A stretch of 41,392 nt of DNA. Origin: SAR202 cluster bacterium (lineage in GTDB: Bacteria > Chloroflexota > Dehalococcoidia > Lucifugimonadales > UBA826). Location: the NCBI GenBank assembly GCA_008373095.1, contig RQOP01000046.1, positions 1-41,392 of the forward strand, written 5' to 3'. The notes under the pieces were generated by a model, which saw nothing but the letters and a program-made list of their open reading frames with translations, did no database searches and was not told the DNA's origin. Made by a program: the position numbers and the translations under genes. Shown here one piece after another: positions 3,640-33,438 of the stretch. Positions within the stretch are counted from its first letter, which is position 1. Each line of letters starts with the position of its first letter.

Positions 3640-4518
3640 ATGACAACTCAATCACTGTATAAAAGTTTCATTATTGAAGAATATCAATTGGAAGAGGAAC
3701 CTTATTATGTTCCGATTCATGACGAGGTGGAATTATTTGAAGCCGCATACAAAAGTAGGCTTCCTTTGATTTTTAAAGGGCCTACGGGGTGCGGAAAAAC
3801 TAGGTTTGTTGAATACATGTCATATAAGTTGGGTTTAGAGCTAACCAAAGTGACAAAGGATGATTCAGACAATTCTGGCGTTAATCTGCCTTTGGTTACA
3901 ATAGCATGCCATGAAGACCTTACAGGAAGCGACTTGGTTGGAAGATACTTGTTGGAAGGAGATCAGACGGTATGGCTTGATGGTCCGCTAACAAGGGCTG
4001 TGAAAGCTGGTGGAATATGCTATTTGGATGAGGTAGTTGAGGCAAGAAAAGACACCACCGTCTTAATACACCCTTTGACGGACCACAGAAGAATACTGCC
4101 TATCGAAAAAAGAGGTGAGTTGCTCGAGGCCGCAGAAGGATTTCTATTGGTTCTTTCTTATAACCCTGGCTACCAGAGTGCATTGAAAGATCTGAAGCAC
4201 AGTACTAGGCAGAGGTTTGTATCAATCGAATTTGACTACCCACCAGTGGATCTAGAGGCCCAAATTGTTGAACACGAGGCTGAAGTAGACAAAGACACTG
4301 CTTATCAGTTGGCCAAGCTTGGTGAGAAAATCAGAAACTTGAAGGAGCACGGTCTGGGGGAAGGAGCAAGTACAAGACTACTCATTTATGCTGGCAAACT
4401 CATATCGGAAGGCATACCTCCCAGAAGAGCCTGCCAGGTATCGGTCAATTGGGCAATCACAGACGATCAATCATTGCAACAAAGCATAACTGAGATAATC
4501 TCTTCAATATTTGAGTAA
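3640..4518 (+). CDS. MoxR-family AAA+ ATPase of the NorQ/CbbQ type
   Basis: A 292-residue AAA+ ATPase. In known systems NorQ/NirQ/CbbQ ATPases work with a VWA partner (NorD/CbbO) to insert metal cofactors or remodel a target enzyme such as nitric oxide reductase or RubisCO. Visible are Walker A GPTGCGKT (residues 47-54), the substrate-loop motif [19 protein letters not shown], Walker [10 protein letters not shown] (Asp130, Glu131), sensor 1 YNPGY and an R-finger/sensor region [15 protein letters not shown]. All key residues appear intact. The matching VWA gene lies two genes downstream in the same operon. No nor or cbb structural genes lie in the window, so the client is unknown. The closest SD-like AGGAG is 14 bases from the ATG; translation may be coupled to coaE. 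Confidence 0.9.
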
Positions 4519-4529
4519 ACCGGTTGTCG

Positions 4530-5096
4530 ATGATATCTCCCGGTTATATAAAGACTAGGCTAAACAAATTAGGGGAAACAAATAGTTCCTCTAAAGGTTA
4601 CACCGCCGCGGGAGTGTTGTTGATTCTTTTTGAGAGAGATGGTGAACACTGGATAATCTTGAATAAGAGGACTCAAAAAGTGGAGCATCATAAGGGGGAA
4701 ATATGTTTTCCTGGAGGCAGAAAGGACATCTTGGATAAAGATTTGACTGAAACTGCTTTGAGAGAAACATGGGAAGAAATGGGGGTACAACCCAATGATG
4801 TCAGCGTACTGGGAGTATTGGAAACTACCCAGACTACAACAGGATATGAGATCACCCCAACGGTAGCTTGGATTAGCCATCCCTACCAATTTGATATTGA
4901 AAACGATGAAGTTGAAGAAATAATTGAGATTCCTTTAGCTGTTCTTTTTAGCAGATGTGCTCGAAGAGATGAAGCGAAATTATTGGCAGGACAAGTTGTT
5001 AATCAGCCGGCCTATCAATATGGTGGCAATCTAGTGTTTGGTGCTACAGCAAGAATTCTTAACAATTTTGCCGATACGATAAGCGAAAGAAATTGA
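4530..5096 (+). CDS. Nudix hydrolase, CoA-pyrophosphatase (NudL/CoaL-like)
   Basis: A 188-residue Nudix protein. The Nudix box is clear: FPGGR, then TALRETWEEMGV with the catalytic RE-x2-EE about residues 78-83. The preceding KVEHHKGEICFPGGR resembles the signature of the CoA-diphosphatase subfamily (LxxHxGqvxFPGGR), which cleaves CoA to 4'-phosphopantetheine and 3',5'-ADP. It sits between the two halves of the NorQ/NorD-type pair and downstream of coaE, so genes for making and cutting CoA share one transcript. Start uncertain: ATG 4530 or TTG 4524, neither with a clear SD; both lie just after the upstream stop (4518), so coupling is likely. Substrate assignment is from subfamily motifs, not proven. 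Confidence 0.85.
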   Translation: MISPGYIKTRLNKLGETNSSSKGYTAAGVLLILFERDGEHWIILNKRTQKVEHHKGEICFPGGRKDILDKDLTETALRETWEEMGVQPNDVSVLGVLETTQTTTGYEITPTVAWISHPYQFDIENDEVEEIIEIPLAVLFSRCARRDEAKLLAGQVVNQPAYQYGGNLVFGATARILNNFADTISERN

Positions 5097-5106
5097 AGGA
5101 GTATTT

Positions 5107-8100
5107 GTGACTGACAAATTACAAGCCTTGCAAGAATTAATACCTGAACTGGAGAAATACCCAGCCCAAGTCCAAGATAACTTTAATAAAGCTATTTCAG
5201 AAATGCCTGAGGCGCTTTCAGATGAGCAGAGATCAGATTGGTTGAAACAGGGGATCGCCATAGCTGCTCAGACTGTCCGTTCGTGGGAGGCCGCAGCTCA
5301 CTTTTTTCAGGTAAGCCCCAAAGTCATTGCTTCGATGCCTTATAGTTATTTTGTGCGGTGGATGGAGTGTGGATCCTCTCTTTGTGAAGAGTCCCCGACT
5401 TTGGCATCGGCATATTTTGAAGCAAGCCCAGCAACGATGAGTAAATTACGTTCCAGGCATATTGAAAGTTGGGCGGGTTTGGGAGATGGATTATACAAGG
5501 GAACTTGGAAGTCTAGTACATTAGCCTGCCGTTTTTTTGCTGAAAGCCCTACTTTGCTAGATACTTTGTCTTTCCAACAGTTGGAAAATTTCGCTAATTT
5601 TCTCGATGCCCTTTCACATAGATCTTATGACTTGTCCTCTGAGTGTTTGACTCTGGGAGAACAGATTTTTCCGTTGGTTGGCGAAGACAAGGATGCTTTT
5701 TTATCTCTGGCCACAACTTTAGTAGATACAGGATGGAGAGAAGTAAAAAGTTTTTTTGAAGCTGGAGCAAAAGCACTGCCAAAGATACATCCAGAAGAAA
5801 GAATGAGATTCCTGAAATTGGCTGAGAGTTTGGTAAACAATGGGGGCACTAATATCCCTGGTACCATGCTTGAAATATCTCAGTCTTTGTCCCTTTTAGA
5901 GGAAGACAATCATCACATAGTTCTAGGGTTCGCAGAAACGTTGTTAGATGAAGAGCCCCTAGCCATGCCAGAATTTATTAAATCAGCTCCTATAGTGCTT
6001 GAAAAGCTCACGATAATGCAGTTGGGGCGTTGGTATCAGGAAGGCGTCAACACACTCTCTCAGAACAAGGATGGAGGGTTGGCTTTTTTTAAGATTGAAT
6101 CATCCCACTCAGAAGCAGTGATTGAGACTTTATCTTCTGGGATAGAATTTGACCGAATCAAACCTGTTATGGAGATGTATTGCAGGGCTCTTGCTGGTGC
6201 AGAAATTAAGTTGTCACCTACTGATGCTCTTGTCGAAAAGAATATAGGGTGGGTTTCAAATGAATCTCCTACGACAGAAGGCTCCACTGTTTTTGTACCT
6301 ACGGTTGTTGATAGGTATGCATCAAAAGAGGAAAATTACGCTTGGTTTAAAGTCGTATCCACTCACCAAGTAGCACATTTAGAGTTCGGCAGTTTCATAT
6401 TTGAATTTGAAAGAGAGGCCGAACTTTTTGAAAACCTCCGGCTTGACTTGGAAAAACGAAGGATAGAAGCGTTACAAAATAAACAGGCCGAGGATTTATC
6501 GGGTGCTGATGAACCAGATAATCCAGAAATCTCTCAAGATCAGTCCCTGGAGGCACATACTGGTTTGGAGCGGGCTTGGTTGACGGATATGCAGCGATTT
6601 TTCGATTTATTTGAGGATCGTAAATTGTCTTTGGATATTTTCACAGTAGTTGAGGATGGGCGGCTCGATGCAAGAGTGAAAGCTGAATACCCAGGAATTA
6701 AATCTTCCTACATACAGGTACAGAGTGATTCCCATGAGAATAGGCCAGATATTAAAGAACTTCCAGCTAGGGAAGCCATGGTTGAATTCATGGTGAGACT
6801 CAGCCTTCAACAATATGAGGGAGTTTCAGCACCTTCTAAATACAGCAAGGAAGCTTCACAAGTAGCTCAAATAGCTCGTAGGGTACTAGTTTCTGATGCG
6901 ACTGTAGAAGATACAGCAGAGGCGACTTTGAGGATTTACGCAATCATTTCGGCCATTCCAAATGAAGAAATCCCCCCAGATGATTGGAATGATATGGATT
7001 TTGAAGACGAAGATGATGAGGATTATGTTGATCCAGAAGATATGGAGAATTTACTGGAACAGATCGGTATGGGTATGGAAATGGAACTGCGACCGGAAGG
7101 GGAGGAGGAATATGAATCCTTGCAAGAGGTGGAATATAGGGGAGATTTTAAGCCAGAACTGGCTCAATTGATGACTGAGTTGAGGATGCAGGAACAAGAT
7201 GAAATGAGTCAGGCTCAAGGTGAGCCTTTGACTCAGGAGCAGTTACAAGAACTTTTGGAAAATAGTGCGGAGTTGGATCTTCAGGCTACTGAGGGGGAAA
7301 TTCAAGAGTCGAGCGGTATGTTTGCAGACAACATAATGAAAGAAGCGGGGGCCAATATGCCTCAGTCACCGGATGACTCGCAAGGGCCTTTCGTTCATGT
7401 AGATGAAGAAGGAGGGGAATTGGAGCCTGCTGAACCTGAGACTTTCGTATATGACGAATGGGATTTTAGGGCAGAGGATTATAAGCCACGGTGGTGTATT
7501 GTCAGGCAAAAAACCATGCAAGAGGGTGATCCCGCATATTTTGGAAACACGCTTAATGAATACGGGACTCTCGTAACGAGGATTCGAAGGCAATTTGAAA
7601 TGATGGTTCCTGAAATGTTCAGGAAAGAGAGAAAACTAATAGATGGAGAAGATATTGATATCGATGACGTCATTGAAAATATGGTCGATATTAAGACAGG
7701 ATCTAGTCCAGATGAAAAATTTTATTGGCGGAGGAACAAAGTTCAACGAGATGTGGCGGTAGCTTTTCTTTTAGATACTAGTGCCTCTACTGCCGAAGCT
7801 ATAGATGAAGGAAAGAATAAGCAGGATGATTGGGATGCTCCTGATGATCCTGTGGAATATATGGTTTGGTTGAGAACGCGTCGTGGGGAACAGATGCGAA
7901 GGTCGTATAAAAGAATTATCGATATGGAAAAAGAATCCATGGTTCTTCTTATAAATGCACTGGAGGCCATTGGAGATACTTACGGCATATATGGGTTTTC
8001 TGGGTATGGAAGGGAGAATGTTGAGTTTTACACTGTCAAAGATCTACAGGAAGGATTTTCGGATAAAGTTAAACGTAGAATTGACAGAATTGCACCATTG

Positions 8101-8436
8101 CATGCTACTAGAATGGGGCCTGCTATAAGGCATGCTGCCTATAAACTGGACAATACTGATGCACGTACCAAGATACTGTTTTTGATAAGTGATGGTAGGC
8201 CACAGGATCGAGGCTATAGTAGGGAAGGAGTTGAAAAAGAATATGCAGTACACGACACAAAAATGGCATTGGATGAGGCAAAAAAACAAGGGATTAATTC
8301 ATTTTGTCTGACCGTGGATAAAAATGGGCATGACTACCTAAAGACGATGTGCTCTGACATGGGATATGAAATTCTAGATGATATCAATGACTTACCTGAA
8401 CGATTGCTAGTCTTGTATCGGCGATTGACTATGTGA
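5107..8436 (+). CDS. Large NorD/CbbO-type protein with helical repeats and VWA domain
   Basis: A 1,109-residue protein, long for NorD/CbbO (usually about 600-800). The N-terminal ~280 residues hold degenerate helical repeats with the pattern A-x2-FF-x2-SP ... L-x4-W-x3-G (for example AAAHFFQVSPKVIASM and LACRFFAESPTLLDTL). The middle contains a strongly acidic stretch around residues 622-650 and a Gln/Glu-rich stretch. The C-terminus is a von Willebrand A domain: MIDAS LLDTSAST (Asp890, Ser892, Ser894) and LFLISDGRPQD (Asp1029). In known systems this partner recruits the NorQ-type ATPase to its client through the metal site. Start: GTG 5107 with AAGGAG five bases upstream. It ends the operon. 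Client unknown. Confidence 0.88.
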   Translation: MTDKLQALQELIPELEKYPAQVQDNFNKAISEMPEALSDEQRSDWLKQGIAIAAQTVRSWEAAAHFFQVSPKVIASMPYSYFVRWMECGSSLCEESPTLASAYFEASPATMSKLRSRHIESWAGLGDGLYKGTWKSSTLACRFFAESPTLLDTLSFQQLENFANFLDALSHRSYDLSSECLTLGEQIFPLVGEDKDAFLSLATTLVDTGWREVKSFFEAGAKALPKIHPEERMRFLKLAESLVNNGGTNIPGTMLEISQSLSLLEEDNHHIVLGFAETLLDEEPLAMPEFIKSAPIVLEKLTIMQLGRWYQEGVNTLSQNKDGGLAFFKIESSHSEAVIETLSSGIEFDRIKPVMEMYCRALAGAEIKLSPTDALVEKNIGWVSNESPTTEGSTVFVPTVVDRYASKEENYAWFKVVSTHQVAHLEFGSFIFEFEREAELFENLRLDLEKRRIEALQNKQAEDLSGADEPDNPEISQDQSLEAHTGLERAWLTDMQRFFDLFEDRKLSLDIFTVVEDGRLDARVKAEYPGIKSSYIQVQSDSHENRPDIKELPAREAMVEFMVRLSLQQYEGVSAPSKYSKEASQVAQIARRVLVSDATVEDTAEATLRIYAIISAIPNEEIPPDDWNDMDFEDEDDEDYVDPEDMENLLEQIGMGMEMELRPEGEEEYESLQEVEYRGDFKPELAQLMTELRMQEQDEMSQAQGEPLTQEQLQELLENSAELDLQATEGEIQESSGMFADNIMKEAGANMPQSPDDSQGPFVHVDEEGGELEPAEPETFVYDEWDFRAEDYKPRWCIVRQKTMQEGDPAYFGNTLNEYGTLVTRIRRQFEMMVPEMFRKERKLIDGEDIDIDDVIENMVDIKTGSSPDEKFYWRRNKVQRDVAVAFLLDTSASTAEAIDEGKNKQDDWDAPDDPVEYMVWLRTRRGEQMRRSYKRIIDMEKESMVLLINALEAIGDTYGIYGFSGYGRENVEFYTVKDLQEGFSDKVKRRIDRIAPLHATRMGPAIRHAAYKLDNTDARTKILFLISDGRPQDRGYSREGVEKEYAVHDTKMALDEAKKQGINSFCLTVDKNGHDYLKTMCSDMGYEILDDINDLPERLLVLYRRLTM

Positions 8437-8603: not shown

Positions 8604-8631
8604 ATACCGTGATCTGTGATGGAGGAAATTT

Positions 8632-9744
8632 ATGTCGAAAGCTGCTAATTTATTGGCACTGGAAGAACTTGGACAGTCAGTATGGTATGACAACATAAGT
8701 AGGGAATTGCTTGTTTCGGGTGGATTGAAAGAGATACTTGATCAGGGAGTCGTCGGGCTGACATCTAATCCCAGTATATTTGAAAAAGCTATTTCTTCAT
8801 CTGAAGTTTATGATCCGGCCATCCAGAGCATGAATAGTGAAAAGTATTCAGATATTGAGGTGTATGAAAAATTAGCAATAGCGGATATACAAGATGCTGC
8901 CGACCTTTTGGCGGACACTTATAGTAATACCCGGGTCCAAAATGGATATGTGTCTCTTGAAGTAAATCCTCATCTTGCTAATGACACAGATGGCACGGTT
9001 GCTGAGGCAGAAAGGCTTCATAAAAGGGTTGATCGGCCGAACCTAATGATAAAGGTGCCGGCGACCAAATCGGGAATTCCGGCAATACATCAATTGATAT
9101 CCAAAGGTATAAGTGTCAATGTCACGTTAATTTTTTCTACAGAAATGTATTCATTGGTACGCGAGGCGTATCTAAGCGGTCTTGAGAATCTTCATGCTAA
9201 TGGTGCAGATCTATCAAAAGTAATTTCCGTGGCCTCATTTTTTGTTAGTAGAGTGGATACCGCCGTCGATAACGCCATCTCCGAGGAAAAACTTCTCTCA
9301 GATGAGTTAAAAGGTATGGCAGGAATTGCAAATGCCAAAATTGCCTACAAAGACTTCCGGGACACTTTCTCATCTGTTCGATTTGAGAAACTTCGCGAAG
9401 CTGGTGCTAATATGCAGAGACCACTATGGGCTAGTACAAGCATGAAGAACCCAGCATTGCGAGACGTTCTATATGTCGAAAATCTAGTGGGCCAAGATAC
9501 AGTTAATACCATGCCAGATGTTACTTTGAATGCCTTCATAGACCATGGTAAATCTGAAAATACTATTACCAAAAATGTAAATGATTCCTATAATCACATA
9601 AATGAACTGATTGCTGGAGGTATAGATATGTCAGCAATCACAGAGGAGCTACTAAAAGATGGGGTCAGGGCGTTTGCGGACTCATTTGATCAACTCCTTG
9701 AGAATATATCTCATAAAAGGTCGACCTTGTCGGCTGTCCTGTAA
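8632..9744 (+). CDS. tal: Transaldolase
   Basis: Pentose phosphate pathway enzyme that transfers a dihydroxyacetone unit between sugar phosphates. The 370-residue protein is of the long actinobacterial/Chloroflexota-like type. Visible are GLTSNPSIFEKAI near the N-terminus, the Schiff-base lysine in LMIKVPATKSG (Lys141), VNVTLIFS, ASFFVSRVDTAVD and the ASTSMKNP segment. Start: ATG 8632 with GGAGG six bases upstream. The stop TAA at 9742-9744 is followed, in the same frame and only four codons later, by the ATG of phosphoglucose isomerase. In some bacteria these two enzymes form a single fused protein. Confidence 0.95.
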   Translation: MSKAANLLALEELGQSVWYDNISRELLVSGGLKEILDQGVVGLTSNPSIFEKAISSSEVYDPAIQSMNSEKYSDIEVYEKLAIADIQDAADLLADTYSNTRVQNGYVSLEVNPHLANDTDGTVAEAERLHKRVDRPNLMIKVPATKSGIPAIHQLISKGISVNVTLIFSTEMYSLVREAYLSGLENLHANGADLSKVISVASFFVSRVDTAVDNAISEEKLLSDELKGMAGIANAKIAYKDFRDTFSSVRFEKLREAGANMQRPLWASTSMKNPALRDVLYVENLVGQDTVNTMPDVTLNAFIDHGKSENTITKNVNDSYNHINELIAGGIDMSAITEELLKDGVRAFADSFDQLLENISHKRSTLSAVL

Positions 9745-9756
9745 TCCGTTGTCATT

Positions 9757-11355
9757 ATGTACTCTAAGCGGGATTCTACAGATTGGGATTCGAGCCTGCT
9801 TAAAAATGCACTTTCCCGTTTCTGGGATTCTACTGAAAATCCTGCTGTTGGCGAACCTTCCGGGATGTCTAACTATTTGGGATGGACATTGGGTTGTGAC
9901 TGGACTCAAGAGGAAACAGTTTCATATTCAAACTTGGCAACTCAAATATGTATAGAAAATTTTCGATATGTATTGTTGATCGCGGTCGGGGGAAGTAGCG
10001 CAGGGGCCAGAGCGATTGTTTCTTTAGGCGATGACAGACCTCAATTCATATATGTTGATTCTTTAGTACCTGACACCGTCGAAAAAATACTGAATAAAGT
10101 AGGAAACGAGAAAACCCTTTTAATAGTTTCTTCTAAATCAGGTACAACCCTTGAAACAGTCACCCTTGCCAAGTATTTCTTGGAAAAATTATCTGCCATT
10201 TTAACGATGTCCTGTGGCTCCCAAAATGCGATCGCTATTACTGATCCTGGCACAGAACTTGAAACCTTCGCTCTTCAACATAAATTTAGAAGTGTTGTAT
10301 ATGGGAAAATTAATATAGGTGGCCGATTTTCTGAATTGTCTTCTTTTGGACTTTTTCCTGCCCTTTTGAACAAATCTGACGTAGCTTCCGTTGTTGATGC
10401 TGCAAATAATATGGTTTCTTTGTGTCACAACTTGGAATATCAACAAAATCCAGCAGCTTCTTTATCAGATTATTTAGGAAATAACCTTGCGCAAAGCAGG
10501 GATAAATTATATGTATACCTACCATCATCAATGAAAAATTTTGATATGTGGTTGGAGCAGTTGCTATCTGAAAGTTTAGGAAAGGAAGGTGTTGGAATTA
10601 TCCCTATAGTCGGGGAACCTGAACTCTTGAATCCTTCGAAGGATGTTTGCGCTGTTATTTATGAGGATTTATCAGATCCTGATAAATCAGTATTTGAGCT
10701 TAGAAAGAAATTGGAAGATTATTCTATCCCCACATATGAAATACAGGTTGACGGGCCAGCTTGTATCGGAGGCGAATTTTTCAAGTGGAAGTTGTCCGTA
10801 GTTCTACTTGCAAACCTAATGGATATAAATCCATTCGACCAGCCTCAAGTCCAAAATTCGAAAGATATGACTAATAAAATTCTTGACCATTTTGTTCTTG
10901 AAGGAGAATTGCCTGTTACATCACCTACTGTAAGTTTCTATGAATGGGTGAGTAACATAACAAGTAGCAACTACGTAGCTATATTGCCGTTCGTGTCTAT
11001 TGAGGATTCGGAACGAAAGTTGCTTTCTGGGTTGGCCATAGGTATTAGTTCTTTAACTGGCGCCCATGTCACTATAGCTTCAAGCCCATCTTATTTACAT
11101 TCGACCGGCCAGATGCATAAAGGAGGACCTGCTTCGGGGGTTTTCCTTCAGTTATTGAGTACTTCGTCTGAAGAAGTACCAATCAGAGATGAAAATTATG
11201 GTCTTTCTACTCTTCTATCAGCTCAGGCTGACGGAGATCTCGAAACGTTGTTATCACTCGGACGCTCAGTCTGCAGAGTTAACCTAGGGCCTGATATCAA
11301 TAAGGGATTGAGAGAGCTAGTGAGTGATGTTAAAGATATATATTTGAGAAAGTAA
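9757..11355 (+). CDS. pgi: Glucose-6-phosphate isomerase
   Basis: Interconverts glucose 6-phosphate and fructose 6-phosphate. The 532-residue protein resembles the isomerase half of bifunctional transaldolase/phosphoglucose isomerases. Visible are the phosphate-binding motif SSKSGTT (Ser126-Thr131), the active-site stretch NIGGRFSELSSFGLFP (GGR plus S-x2-S) and the C-terminal catalytic lysine motif STGQMHKGGPASGVFLQ (Lys455). There is no ribosome-binding site in front of ATG 9757, and the gene is in frame with tal across one stop codon. Expression probably depends on termination-reinitiation at the tal stop or on readthrough. It ends one base before the convergent Mrp gene. Confidence 0.94.
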   Translation: MYSKRDSTDWDSSLLKNALSRFWDSTENPAVGEPSGMSNYLGWTLGCDWTQEETVSYSNLATQICIENFRYVLLIAVGGSSAGARAIVSLGDDRPQFIYVDSLVPDTVEKILNKVGNEKTLLIVSSKSGTTLETVTLAKYFLEKLSAILTMSCGSQNAIAITDPGTELETFALQHKFRSVVYGKINIGGRFSELSSFGLFPALLNKSDVASVVDAANNMVSLCHNLEYQQNPAASLSDYLGNNLAQSRDKLYVYLPSSMKNFDMWLEQLLSESLGKEGVGIIPIVGEPELLNPSKDVCAVIYEDLSDPDKSVFELRKKLEDYSIPTYEIQVDGPACIGGEFFKWKLSVVLLANLMDINPFDQPQVQNSKDMTNKILDHFVLEGELPVTSPTVSFYEWVSNITSSNYVAILPFVSIEDSERKLLSGLAIGISSLTGAHVTIASSPSYLHSTGQMHKGGPASGVFLQLLSTSSEEVPIRDENYGLSTLLSAQADGDLETLLSLGRSVCRVNLGPDINKGLRELVSDVKDIYLRK

Positions 11356-31375: not shown

Positions 31376-31699
31376 ATGCCGCAATCAGGACAAGAAATGC
31401 TTGATGAGACAATATCCACTTGCAAATCTATTGCAGATGGTCTTGGTACGCAAAATCAAGATTGGGAAAATTCGGTTATAGAGATAGTGGAGAAATTTCA
31501 AGAGGTAAGTGGTACCTTTTTCTTCAAAACAATGCCAAGTGTTCCAGTTACTCGTACAGCTATGAGAGATGCTGCCTCAGCCCTAGAACTGAAAAATGCT
31601 AGTGATTGGGATGGGATGACTACCGCTGTGGAAATCCTAATAGCTAGCTCACAAAATTTGATTGAAAAAGCCGGTATGAAAGGAACAACCTTAACTTGA
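31376..31699 (+). CDS. Small helical protein of unknown function
   Basis: I do not recognise this 107-residue protein. It looks soluble and mostly alpha-helical, has one Cys (in ISTCKSIADGLG) and no membrane or signal segment. GGGAGG about 10 bases before ATG 31376 is a good ribosome-binding site. Its stop TGA overlaps the TTG start of the NAD-dependent epimerase (TTGA), so the two are translationally coupled and may work together. The reading frame is supported by that coupling and by lack of any competing frame. Confidence 0.65.
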   Translation: MPQSGQEMLDETISTCKSIADGLGTQNQDWENSVIEIVEKFQEVSGTFFFKTMPSVPVTRTAMRDAASALELKNASDWDGMTTAVEILIASSQNLIEKAGMKGTTLT

Positions 31700-32571
31700 G
31701 CGATCCAGTATTGATAACCGGTGGAGCAGGAAGTGTAGGTAGACAACTGGCCGGCATGTTTCTGGCCGAAGGAAGGTCTGTTCGTATATTTGACCTGCCA
31801 TTTATGGATTTCACGGGATTGGAAGGGGAACCTAATGTGGAGGTGTTGAAAGGGGATATCACTGATAGGGGATCCGTAAATGAGGCCGTTCTCAATGTAG
31901 GAGGAATTCTCCATTTGGCGGCACTTTTACCACCAACCAGTGAACGTGATAGAGATAAAACATTTGCTGTAAATGTGGAGGGTACAAGAAACATAGTGGA
32001 CGCTCTAAAAACTCAATCTTCGAAGGCCACTTTAGTTTTTACCTCTTCAATCAGTACATATGGGGATACTTCTAATGAGACTGATCCGATCACTATTAGT
32101 CAACCACAAAACGCTATAGATATATATGCAGAGAGTAAAATTGCAGGAGAAAAGATTCTTATCGAATCGGGTGTGAATTTTGTGATACTACGGATAGCAA
32201 GTATCGCGGTTCCAGCATTTTTAGAGCCTCCTGAACCTTGGCCATTTACCTCTTCTCAAAGAGTAGAAATGGTTCATAGAGATGATGTAGCTGATGCTAT
32301 AAAGTCTTCAGTTGATACTCCAGAGGCGGTAGGGAATGTATTCAACATTGCTGGTGGTTCAAGTTGGCGTTTAACTGGAAAAGATTATGTAGAAGATTTT
32401 TTTAATTTTATGGGAGCTCCTGTTGAGATGGCGGTATATCGGGAAGAACCAGGTTGGAATGATTGGTATGATACTACCGAGTCCCAGAAGATATTAAAAT
32501 ACCAGAATAGGTCTTATGATTTCTATTCAGGTGAGATGAAATCAATCGTGGAAGAAATGATGGCTGAGTAG
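31696..32571 (+). CDS. NAD-dependent epimerase/dehydratase (extended SDR)
   Basis: A 291-residue Rossmann enzyme. The N-terminus SDPVLITGGAGSVGRQLA has the extended-SDR GxxGxxG, followed by RIFDLP (Asp selects NAD), LHLAALLPP, FTSSISTYG (catalytic Ser) and YAESKIAGEKI (Tyr and Lys). The substrate is probably a nucleotide sugar or related diol; it cannot be told from sequence. The start is TTG 31696, inside the stop of the small unknown gene; that is the only start that keeps the complete first beta strand. It is followed by larE after 24 bases. Confidence 0.87.
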   Translation: MSDPVLITGGAGSVGRQLAGMFLAEGRSVRIFDLPFMDFTGLEGEPNVEVLKGDITDRGSVNEAVLNVGGILHLAALLPPTSERDRDKTFAVNVEGTRNIVDALKTQSSKATLVFTSSISTYGDTSNETDPITISQPQNAIDIYAESKIAGEKILIESGVNFVILRIASIAVPAFLEPPEPWPFTSSQRVEMVHRDDVADAIKSSVDTPEAVGNVFNIAGGSSWRLTGKDYVEDFFNFMGAPVEMAVYREEPGWNDWYDTTESQKILKYQNRSYDFYSGEMKSIVEEMMAE

Positions 32572-32595
32572 CATCAAAGTAAAGTGAGGATTGGT

Positions 32596-33438
32596 ATGGT
32601 ACAGATAACTGAAAAATCTGTTGAGGAAAAAAGACAGCAACTTGTAAATATCATAAATGATATGGGTAGTGTAATTGTTGCCTACTCTGGTGGTGTGGAC
32701 AGTGCTTTTTTAGCGGCTGTCGCTCATGAAGTTTTGGGTGAGAAGGCTTTATCGGTAACTGCTAATTCGCCTAGCCTTGCTCCATCTGAACTAGAGGATG
32801 CGATAGCCCTTGCAACAGACCAGCAAATTCATTACGAGATCATTGAAACAAAAGAAACGGAGCGGGAAGACTATCAGGCAAACAATCCAGATAGATGTTT
32901 TTTTTGTAAAGATGAATTGTATTCTCACTTAATCAAATTCGCTGATCAACGAGGCTACGCAGTAATTACCAATGGGACTAATGTAGATGACCTGGGAGAT
33001 TATAGACCTGGTCTTGAGGCTGCAAAGCAGTATGGCGTGAGAAGTCCTTTGGTGGAGGCGGATCTTACCAAACAAGATATAAGAGATTTGTCTAAAGAAA
33101 TGGGGTTGCCAACGTGGGATAAGCCTGCCCAGGCCTGCTTATCATCTCGAATACCGTATGGGACGATGGTGACTGTAGAAGCTCTTACGAGGATCGCAAA
33201 GGCAGAACATTTTCTCAGGTCTAAAGGATTCAAACAATTGCGAGTAAGGCATCACGATACTGTAGCCCGCATAGAAATTGAACCTAAGGATTTTTCGGCT
33301 CTACTGGACGAGTCCACTAGGACCGATATTACAGAATATTTCAAATCAATTGGATACTCATACGTAACAATGGATATGAACGGGTTTCGGTCGGGAAGCC
33401 TCAACGAAATTTTGACCACTTTTAAGAAGAAGAAATAG
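32596..33438 (+). CDS. larE: ATP-dependent sacrificial sulfur transferase LarE
   Basis: About 280 residues. LarE adenylates and sulfurates the P2CMN precursor of the nickel-pincer cofactor used by lactate racemase (LarA) and relatives; in the L. plantarum type it gives up its own cysteine sulfur. Visible are the PP-loop AYSGGVDSAFLAAVAHE, CFFCKDELYSHL, ITNGTNVDDLGDYRPG and AQACLSSRIPYG, whose Cys181 matches the sacrificial Cys176. So this looks like the single-Cys sacrificial type. Start: ATG 32596, GAGGA five bases upstream; GTG 32584 is less likely. No larA, larB or larC is in the window. Confidence 0.93.
   Translation: MVQITEKSVEEKRQQLVNIINDMGSVIVAYSGGVDSAFLAAVAHEVLGEKALSVTANSPSLAPSELEDAIALATDQQIHYEIIETKETEREDYQANNPDRCFFCKDELYSHLIKFADQRGYAVITNGTNVDDLGDYRPGLEAAKQYGVRSPLVEADLTKQDIRDLSKEMGLPTWDKPAQACLSSRIPYGTMVTVEALTRIAKAEHFLRSKGFKQLRVRHHDTVARIEIEPKDFSALLDESTRTDITEYFKSIGYSYVTMDMNGFRSGSLNEILTTFKKKK

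Follow-up and report, generated by a model that had tools for sequence, protein, structure and literature searches.

The transaldolase gene (tal) and the phosphoglucose isomerase gene (pgi) described here are very probably two separate, intact, co-directed genes, and the TAA between them an ordinary working stop codon. Their products are a stand-alone transaldolase (Tal) and a stand-alone phosphoglucose isomerase (Pgi); in other bacteria, including some of the same order, a single fused chain carries both. The enzyme is already known in fused form, the two-gene version here is ordinary, and more exciting readings are not needed. Two separate open reading frames (ORFs) are kept in every examined member of the genus that has the locus, and pgi has no Shine-Dalgarno (SD) sequence in front of it.

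Gene arrangement at the tal-pgi locus

The window, i.e., the whole 41,392-nt stretch of DNA that was analyzed, is a contig (C46) from a 1.95-Mb, 94% complete assembly of a SAR202 cluster bacterium; SAR202 is a mainly marine group. The features of the locus are as follows.

8620-8627, + strand: SD sequence of tal (TGGAGGAA; GGAGGAAA), -9.3 kcal/mol with the anti-SD tail
8632-9744, + strand: tal, transaldolase, 370 aa, stop codon TAA; PF00923, E 4.8e-83
9742-9744, + strand: tal stop codon TAA (TAA, TGA, or TGA TGA in congeners)
9745-9756, + strand: tal-pgi spacer, 12 nt, no SD sequence, +0.9 kcal/mol; 12 to 15 nt in the seven members of the genus with the locus
9757-11355, + strand: pgi, phosphoglucose isomerase of the Tal-Pgi fusion type, 532 aa; PF00342, E 5e-12

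The two genes share a frame, with a single internal stop and the spacer codons TCC GTT GTC ATT between them, as an earlier note on this DNA had read from the tal TAA and the pgi ATG; both the sequence and the ORFs bear that reading out. However, an in-frame neighbor behind one stop is unremarkable by itself, because 4 of the 19 close pairs in the window (co-directed, non-overlapping, gaps of 0 to 100 nt, starts taken from the longest ORFs) are in frame, and frame sharing was rejected on this count as proof of a special link. A second in-frame pair, at 31696-33438 (+ strand), likewise has a 12-nt gap when starts are taken from the longest ORFs; the true start may lie 12 nt later, at an ATG with a better SD sequence (-7.8 kcal/mol).

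Directly upstream of tal, at 3640-8436 (+ strand), a CbbQ/NorQ-type AAA ATPase, a NUDIX protein, and a 1109-aa VWA-domain protein lie in a row, in a cluster that we take to resemble a MoxR/VWA-type pair. Scanning the window for Rfam families and tRNAs yielded one tRNA, distant from tal-pgi. None of the papers searched mentions both SAR202 and transaldolase.

Identity and soundness of the two proteins

Both proteins look intact from their sequences. Tal scores 489.7 bits against PRK03343, above the curated cut-off of 367 and as a full-length match; it covers all of PF00923 (positions 1-285 of 285), and its closest solved structure is the transaldolase 3clm (E 3.5e-89). Pgi scores 45.6 bits against PF00342, above the gathering score of 22 and over just positions 96-309 of 486, and at E 0.001 it is the sole match to this family in the genome. 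As modeled by AlphaFold (mean pLDDT 86.1), Pgi has the PGI fold, and Foldseek pairs the model with the solved PGIs 3ff1 and 1zzg (E 1.5e-19 and 2.6e-19). Since the TM scores by query are 0.60 and 0.58 at 20% identity, Pgi is a divergent member of the PGI family with a longer chain. Residues E272, S273, K276, P363, V365, and K369 of Pgi, which we take to be among the catalytic ones, do not vary in either of two alignments (15 and 20 rows), and the blocks that hold them align with 1zzg. Tal and Pgi are both predicted to be active enzymes.

No match to PF00479 (glucose-6-phosphate dehydrogenase) was found in the genome, while 9 of 14 control genomes matched; PF00456 (transketolase N) was matched twice, weakly but over the cut-off (34.2 and 27.5 bits), and PF02779 gave four, one of them elsewhere in the window. 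The lack of PF00479, with PF00456 matched only weakly, could be attributed to (i) an unusual pentose phosphate pathway or (ii) missing contigs.

The known relative of the pair is the bifunctional Tal/Pgi of model NF007080/PRK09533, whose two parts the window proteins match in the same order and orientation: Tal at positions 4-375 and Pgi at positions 404-785 (E 8.4e-108) of 949. Unlike that enzyme, the window encodes two polypeptides instead of one, with a stop codon and a second start codon where the fusion has its linker. With the TAA at 9742-9744 and the same separation in all seven genomes of the genus that have the locus, no single chain of about 900 to 950 residues is encoded. Neither protein reaches the NF007080 cut-off of 712 bits (Tal, 491.2; Pgi, 361.5), and the pair reaches 762.8 only in a search that continues across the stop. 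Searches of that type can therefore score a split pair as a bifunctional enzyme, as happens for the window.

The earlier note had mentioned fusions of about 900 to 950 residues in some bacteria and a similar summed length here. Fused open frames of 909 to 937 aa do occur in the same order, and the window's 370 and 532 aa add up to a fusion-like length. A bifunctional Tal/Pgi of Gluconobacter oxydans was described by Sugiyama 2003, as cited in passages of PMC7092467 and PMC4378227; an excerpt of PMC4062416 places the fused protein in many bacteria, and Sulfobacillus fusions are mentioned in passages of the literature on the fusion. Adjacent unfused pairs also exist in other members of the order and in Ktedonobacteria-type records, with the same genes, the same gene order, and short or overlapping spacers. 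In these pairs the genes overlap (by 1 or 4 nt) or are spaced differently, whereas the window's genus has 12 to 15 nt and an ATG; one genome outside the genus (G040) also has a 12-nt spacer.

Conservation of the split within the genus

The window's genus (g1) was represented by eight members, the window's own genome (G000) and seven others, with one genome per species. The locus was found in seven of the eight (G005 matches neither protein), and in all seven, the window and six congeners, tal and pgi are separate ORFs with an ATG at the pgi start.

G000 (window): stop TAA, spacer 12 nt, in frame
G006: stop TAA, spacer 12 nt
G004: stop TGA, spacer 15 nt
G001: stop TGA TGA, spacer 15 nt
G002: stop TGA TGA, spacer 15 nt
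G007: stop TGA TGA, spacer 15 nt; tal cut by contig end
G003: stop TGA, spacer 13 nt, pgi in another frame

Identity is 72 to 83% for tal among the five congeners with a whole tal and 56 to 75% for pgi among six. The earlier note had asked whether the TAA is conserved: a stop is present in 7/7, but it is TAA only in the window and G006. Because the stop is kept while its letters change, a sequencing error, a recent breakage, and a conserved readthrough are excluded for practical purposes.

Among the possibilities that the note had raised was a fused gene split by one stop, either real or a sequencing error. The window does come from a draft assembly, and one copy of the exact locus was seen; nevertheless, the split recurs in seven genomes of as many species, with differing stops, double stops in three, and a frame change in one, and both ORFs are open and conserved. 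Seven genomes with the split rule out a sequencing error, and we regard an error or a recently broken gene together as extremely unlikely.

A single fused protein made by programmed readthrough of the tal stop appears just as improbable. The common frame, the lone stop, the fusion-like total length, and a read-through score above the fusion-model cut-off would all fit it, but two consecutive TGA codons in three congeners, the out-of-frame pgi of another, the varying identity of the stop, and the ATG kept at every pgi start do not. Basal readthrough aside, the double stops and the out-of-frame congener refute it as a conserved mechanism. The window also carries selA (PF03841; 1495-3063, - strand), and the lineage may use selenocysteine. 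Decoding of UGA as selenocysteine was set aside for this locus, the tal stop of the window being TAA.

Translation start of pgi

The starts of the two genes were compared in their binding to the anti-SD tail. The tail used (...GGATCACCTCCTTT) is present in the genome's own 16S gene; it is the usual CCTCC tail. The pgi leader gives +0.9 kcal/mol, and 93% of 2000 random stretches of the window bind equally well or better, whereas tal has -9.3 kcal/mol; the absence of a ribosome-binding site before pgi, claimed earlier, is thus confirmed. Across the genus, tal leaders range from -8.2 to -11.7 kcal/mol in the six measurable genomes (the window and five congeners), and pgi leaders range from +0.9 to -3.0 kcal/mol in 7/7. 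Relatives with out-of-frame genes and SD sites of their own had been named in the note as refuting its reading; G003 is indeed out of frame, but no pgi start in the seven genomes binds better than -3.0 kcal/mol. The mRNA around the pgi start is barely less structured than shuffles (z +1.29), which is nothing notable.

In the proposed mechanism, tal would initiate from its own strong SD sequence, tal and pgi would be cotranscribed as one short operon, and ribosomes finishing tal would start pgi by termination-reinitiation or local scanning. Since pgi has no SD sequence and its start lies 12 nt behind the stop (12 to 15 nt in the genus), it is most likely translated by ribosomes ending tal, and we put translational coupling at slightly better than an even chance. 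Where the earlier note had proposed readthrough or reinitiation, the former fell with the double stops and the frame change, and the latter stands as our best guess for how a pgi without an SD sequence is started 12 nt downstream.

The distance itself is borderline. Coupling is expected at about -8 to +10 nt, against +12 nt in the window; in passages of PMC10666635, +11 to +20 nt forms a class in which reinitiation in Escherichia coli varies by gene. According to the same passages, a distance of +14 nt lowers reinitiation by 40 to 80% in E. coli, one gene pair still reinitiates at 15 nt, and coupling is nearly absent at about 20 nt. Termination-reinitiation pairs described there share the short spacer, which in the window has no SD sequence before the downstream gene; they differ in their typical -4/-1 overlap, against the window's +12 spacing. 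The paper also holds that pairs at +9 to +12 nt are likelier to initiate independently, having space for an SD sequence; before the window's pgi, that sequence is missing.

The main rival to reinitiation is SD-less independent initiation. Here, pgi would be translated independently of tal, either without an SD sequence or from its own transcript begun inside tal, and we hold this to be possible, at clearly less than even probability. In its favor, 8 of the 38 window ORFs (pgi included) have no candidate start within the first 120 nt reaching -4 kcal/mol, a level that 27% of random stretches reach, so that pgi is one of several ORFs lacking an SD sequence, and a 12-nt distance is close to the limit at which reinitiation is efficient (passages of PMC10666635). 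However, a start 12 to 15 nt behind the stop in 7/7 genomes is explained more simply by coupling.

Fused and split forms across the order

Among the matches listed, the order has 154 pgi regions, of which 15 are fused, 53 are adjacent to tal but split, and 86 have no tal just upstream (5 of these 86 with less than 1200 nt of upstream sequence). These regions are the window, L061-L090, and L175-L297; G015 appears as two halves from separate contigs, G050 and G194 contribute two loci apiece, and G211, at a contig end, was left out. Of the 53 split junctions listed, 32 are in frame and 13 and 8 are in the other two frames; this frame count excludes in-frame pairs seen just in the read-through search, which merges in-frame pairs, and G012, G014, G043, and G057 were taken for gene adjacency, not for frame.

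Fused and unfused forms occur inside the single genera g11, g36, and g92. In g11, two loci (L072 and L088) are fused and two (L225 and L233) are split with a 4-nt overlap; in g36, L195 is fused and L201 has no tal upstream. A pgi tree of 119 rows requires the fused label to change no fewer than 13 times; the starred branches alone force at least 8 of these changes. The tree includes one lone-pgi row per genus and leaves out L089, L090, L227, and the lone-pgi rows with less than 1200 nt of upstream sequence. Because it comes from a quick search with one support value and several long branches, and 2 of the 21 intended outgroup rows fall inside, it gives no polarity.

Origin of the gene pair in the window

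Two origins, both compatible with two genes today, may be considered: (i) an old fission, in which a stop arose in the linker of a fused ancestor, pgi gained a start there, and the split was fixed in the family; or (ii) a primitive two-gene state that was kept while the fusion arose elsewhere, in line with the unfused ancestor that the earlier note had listed as a third possibility. We rate the old fission at a little under an even chance.

Several observations agree with an old fission. Among the matches listed, the linker measures 207 to 210 nt in 13 of the 15 fused genes of the order, and it is 207 nt in 12 of 16 fused genes from named records, which carry several phylum names and include several close relatives; these 16 rows and 21 outgroup rows were assumed to lie outside the order. 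In most fused linkers an SLG-like motif precedes a helix-like stretch; the linkers vary little in length and look homologous across phyla. The window's stop and start fall within the stretch aligned to the fused linker. One split row of the linker comparison, L103, is the same locus as G034.

The frames of the split junctions point the same way. Among the matches listed, 31 of 52 are in frame (p 9e-5 assuming independence, which fails); by majority, 13 of 22 genera are in frame, above one third (p 0.012), and 12 of 21 are so without g1 (p 0.021), the tally being made by hand over genera that are not independent draws. These statistics exclude L089, which belongs to the same genus as L071. The excess hints at an origin of split junctions from fusions.

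The clearest case is in genus g92, where the lone pgi of G192 (L178) is preceded in frame by 59 nt of Tal C-terminus plus linker. This remnant aligns to the fused congener G220 (L176) with a score of 33; 100 shuffles never exceeded 14. As the lone pgi keeps a Tal remnant, the unfused state there is derived, the fusion having been lost; with a fused ancestor behind at least this lone pgi, the unfused forms in the order are not all primitive.

Against an old fission in the window's own lineage, none of the 13 junctions in its family is fused (among the matches listed), no linker relic was seen in the g1 sequences, and the g1 interval is 186 to 201 nt, not 207 to 210 nt, within the 180 to 279 nt spanned by the 52 measurable split junctions listed; the genera behind the frame bias, moreover, are not independent.

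The primitive two-gene state draws on the same family, split at 13/13 junctions listed, and on the 1- or 4-nt overlaps of the unfused genes in the Ktedonobacteria-type records L120, L131, L133, L137, and L153. It has to contend with fused genes bearing similar linkers under several phylum names, with the loss of the fusion in g92, and with a tree on which the fused label must change at least 8 times, although the tree gives no direction. We find it rather doubtful.

Implications for the order

For this order of the Dehalococcoidia, which includes the SAR202 lineage, we tentatively suggest, as a scenario that is at present rather unlikely, that Tal-Pgi flips repeatedly between one fused gene and two, mostly through stops and small indels in one ancient homologous linker, and that in lineages such as the window's genus SD-less reinitiation takes the place of fusion in keeping both products together. 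Within this one order, tal and pgi occur as a fusion, as in-frame and out-of-frame split pairs, as overlapping genes, and apart from each other; a single genus may hold more than one of these states. Because the order holds such a natural series of tal-pgi states, the direction of change between fusion and fission, and its cost, become testable for enzymes of central metabolism.
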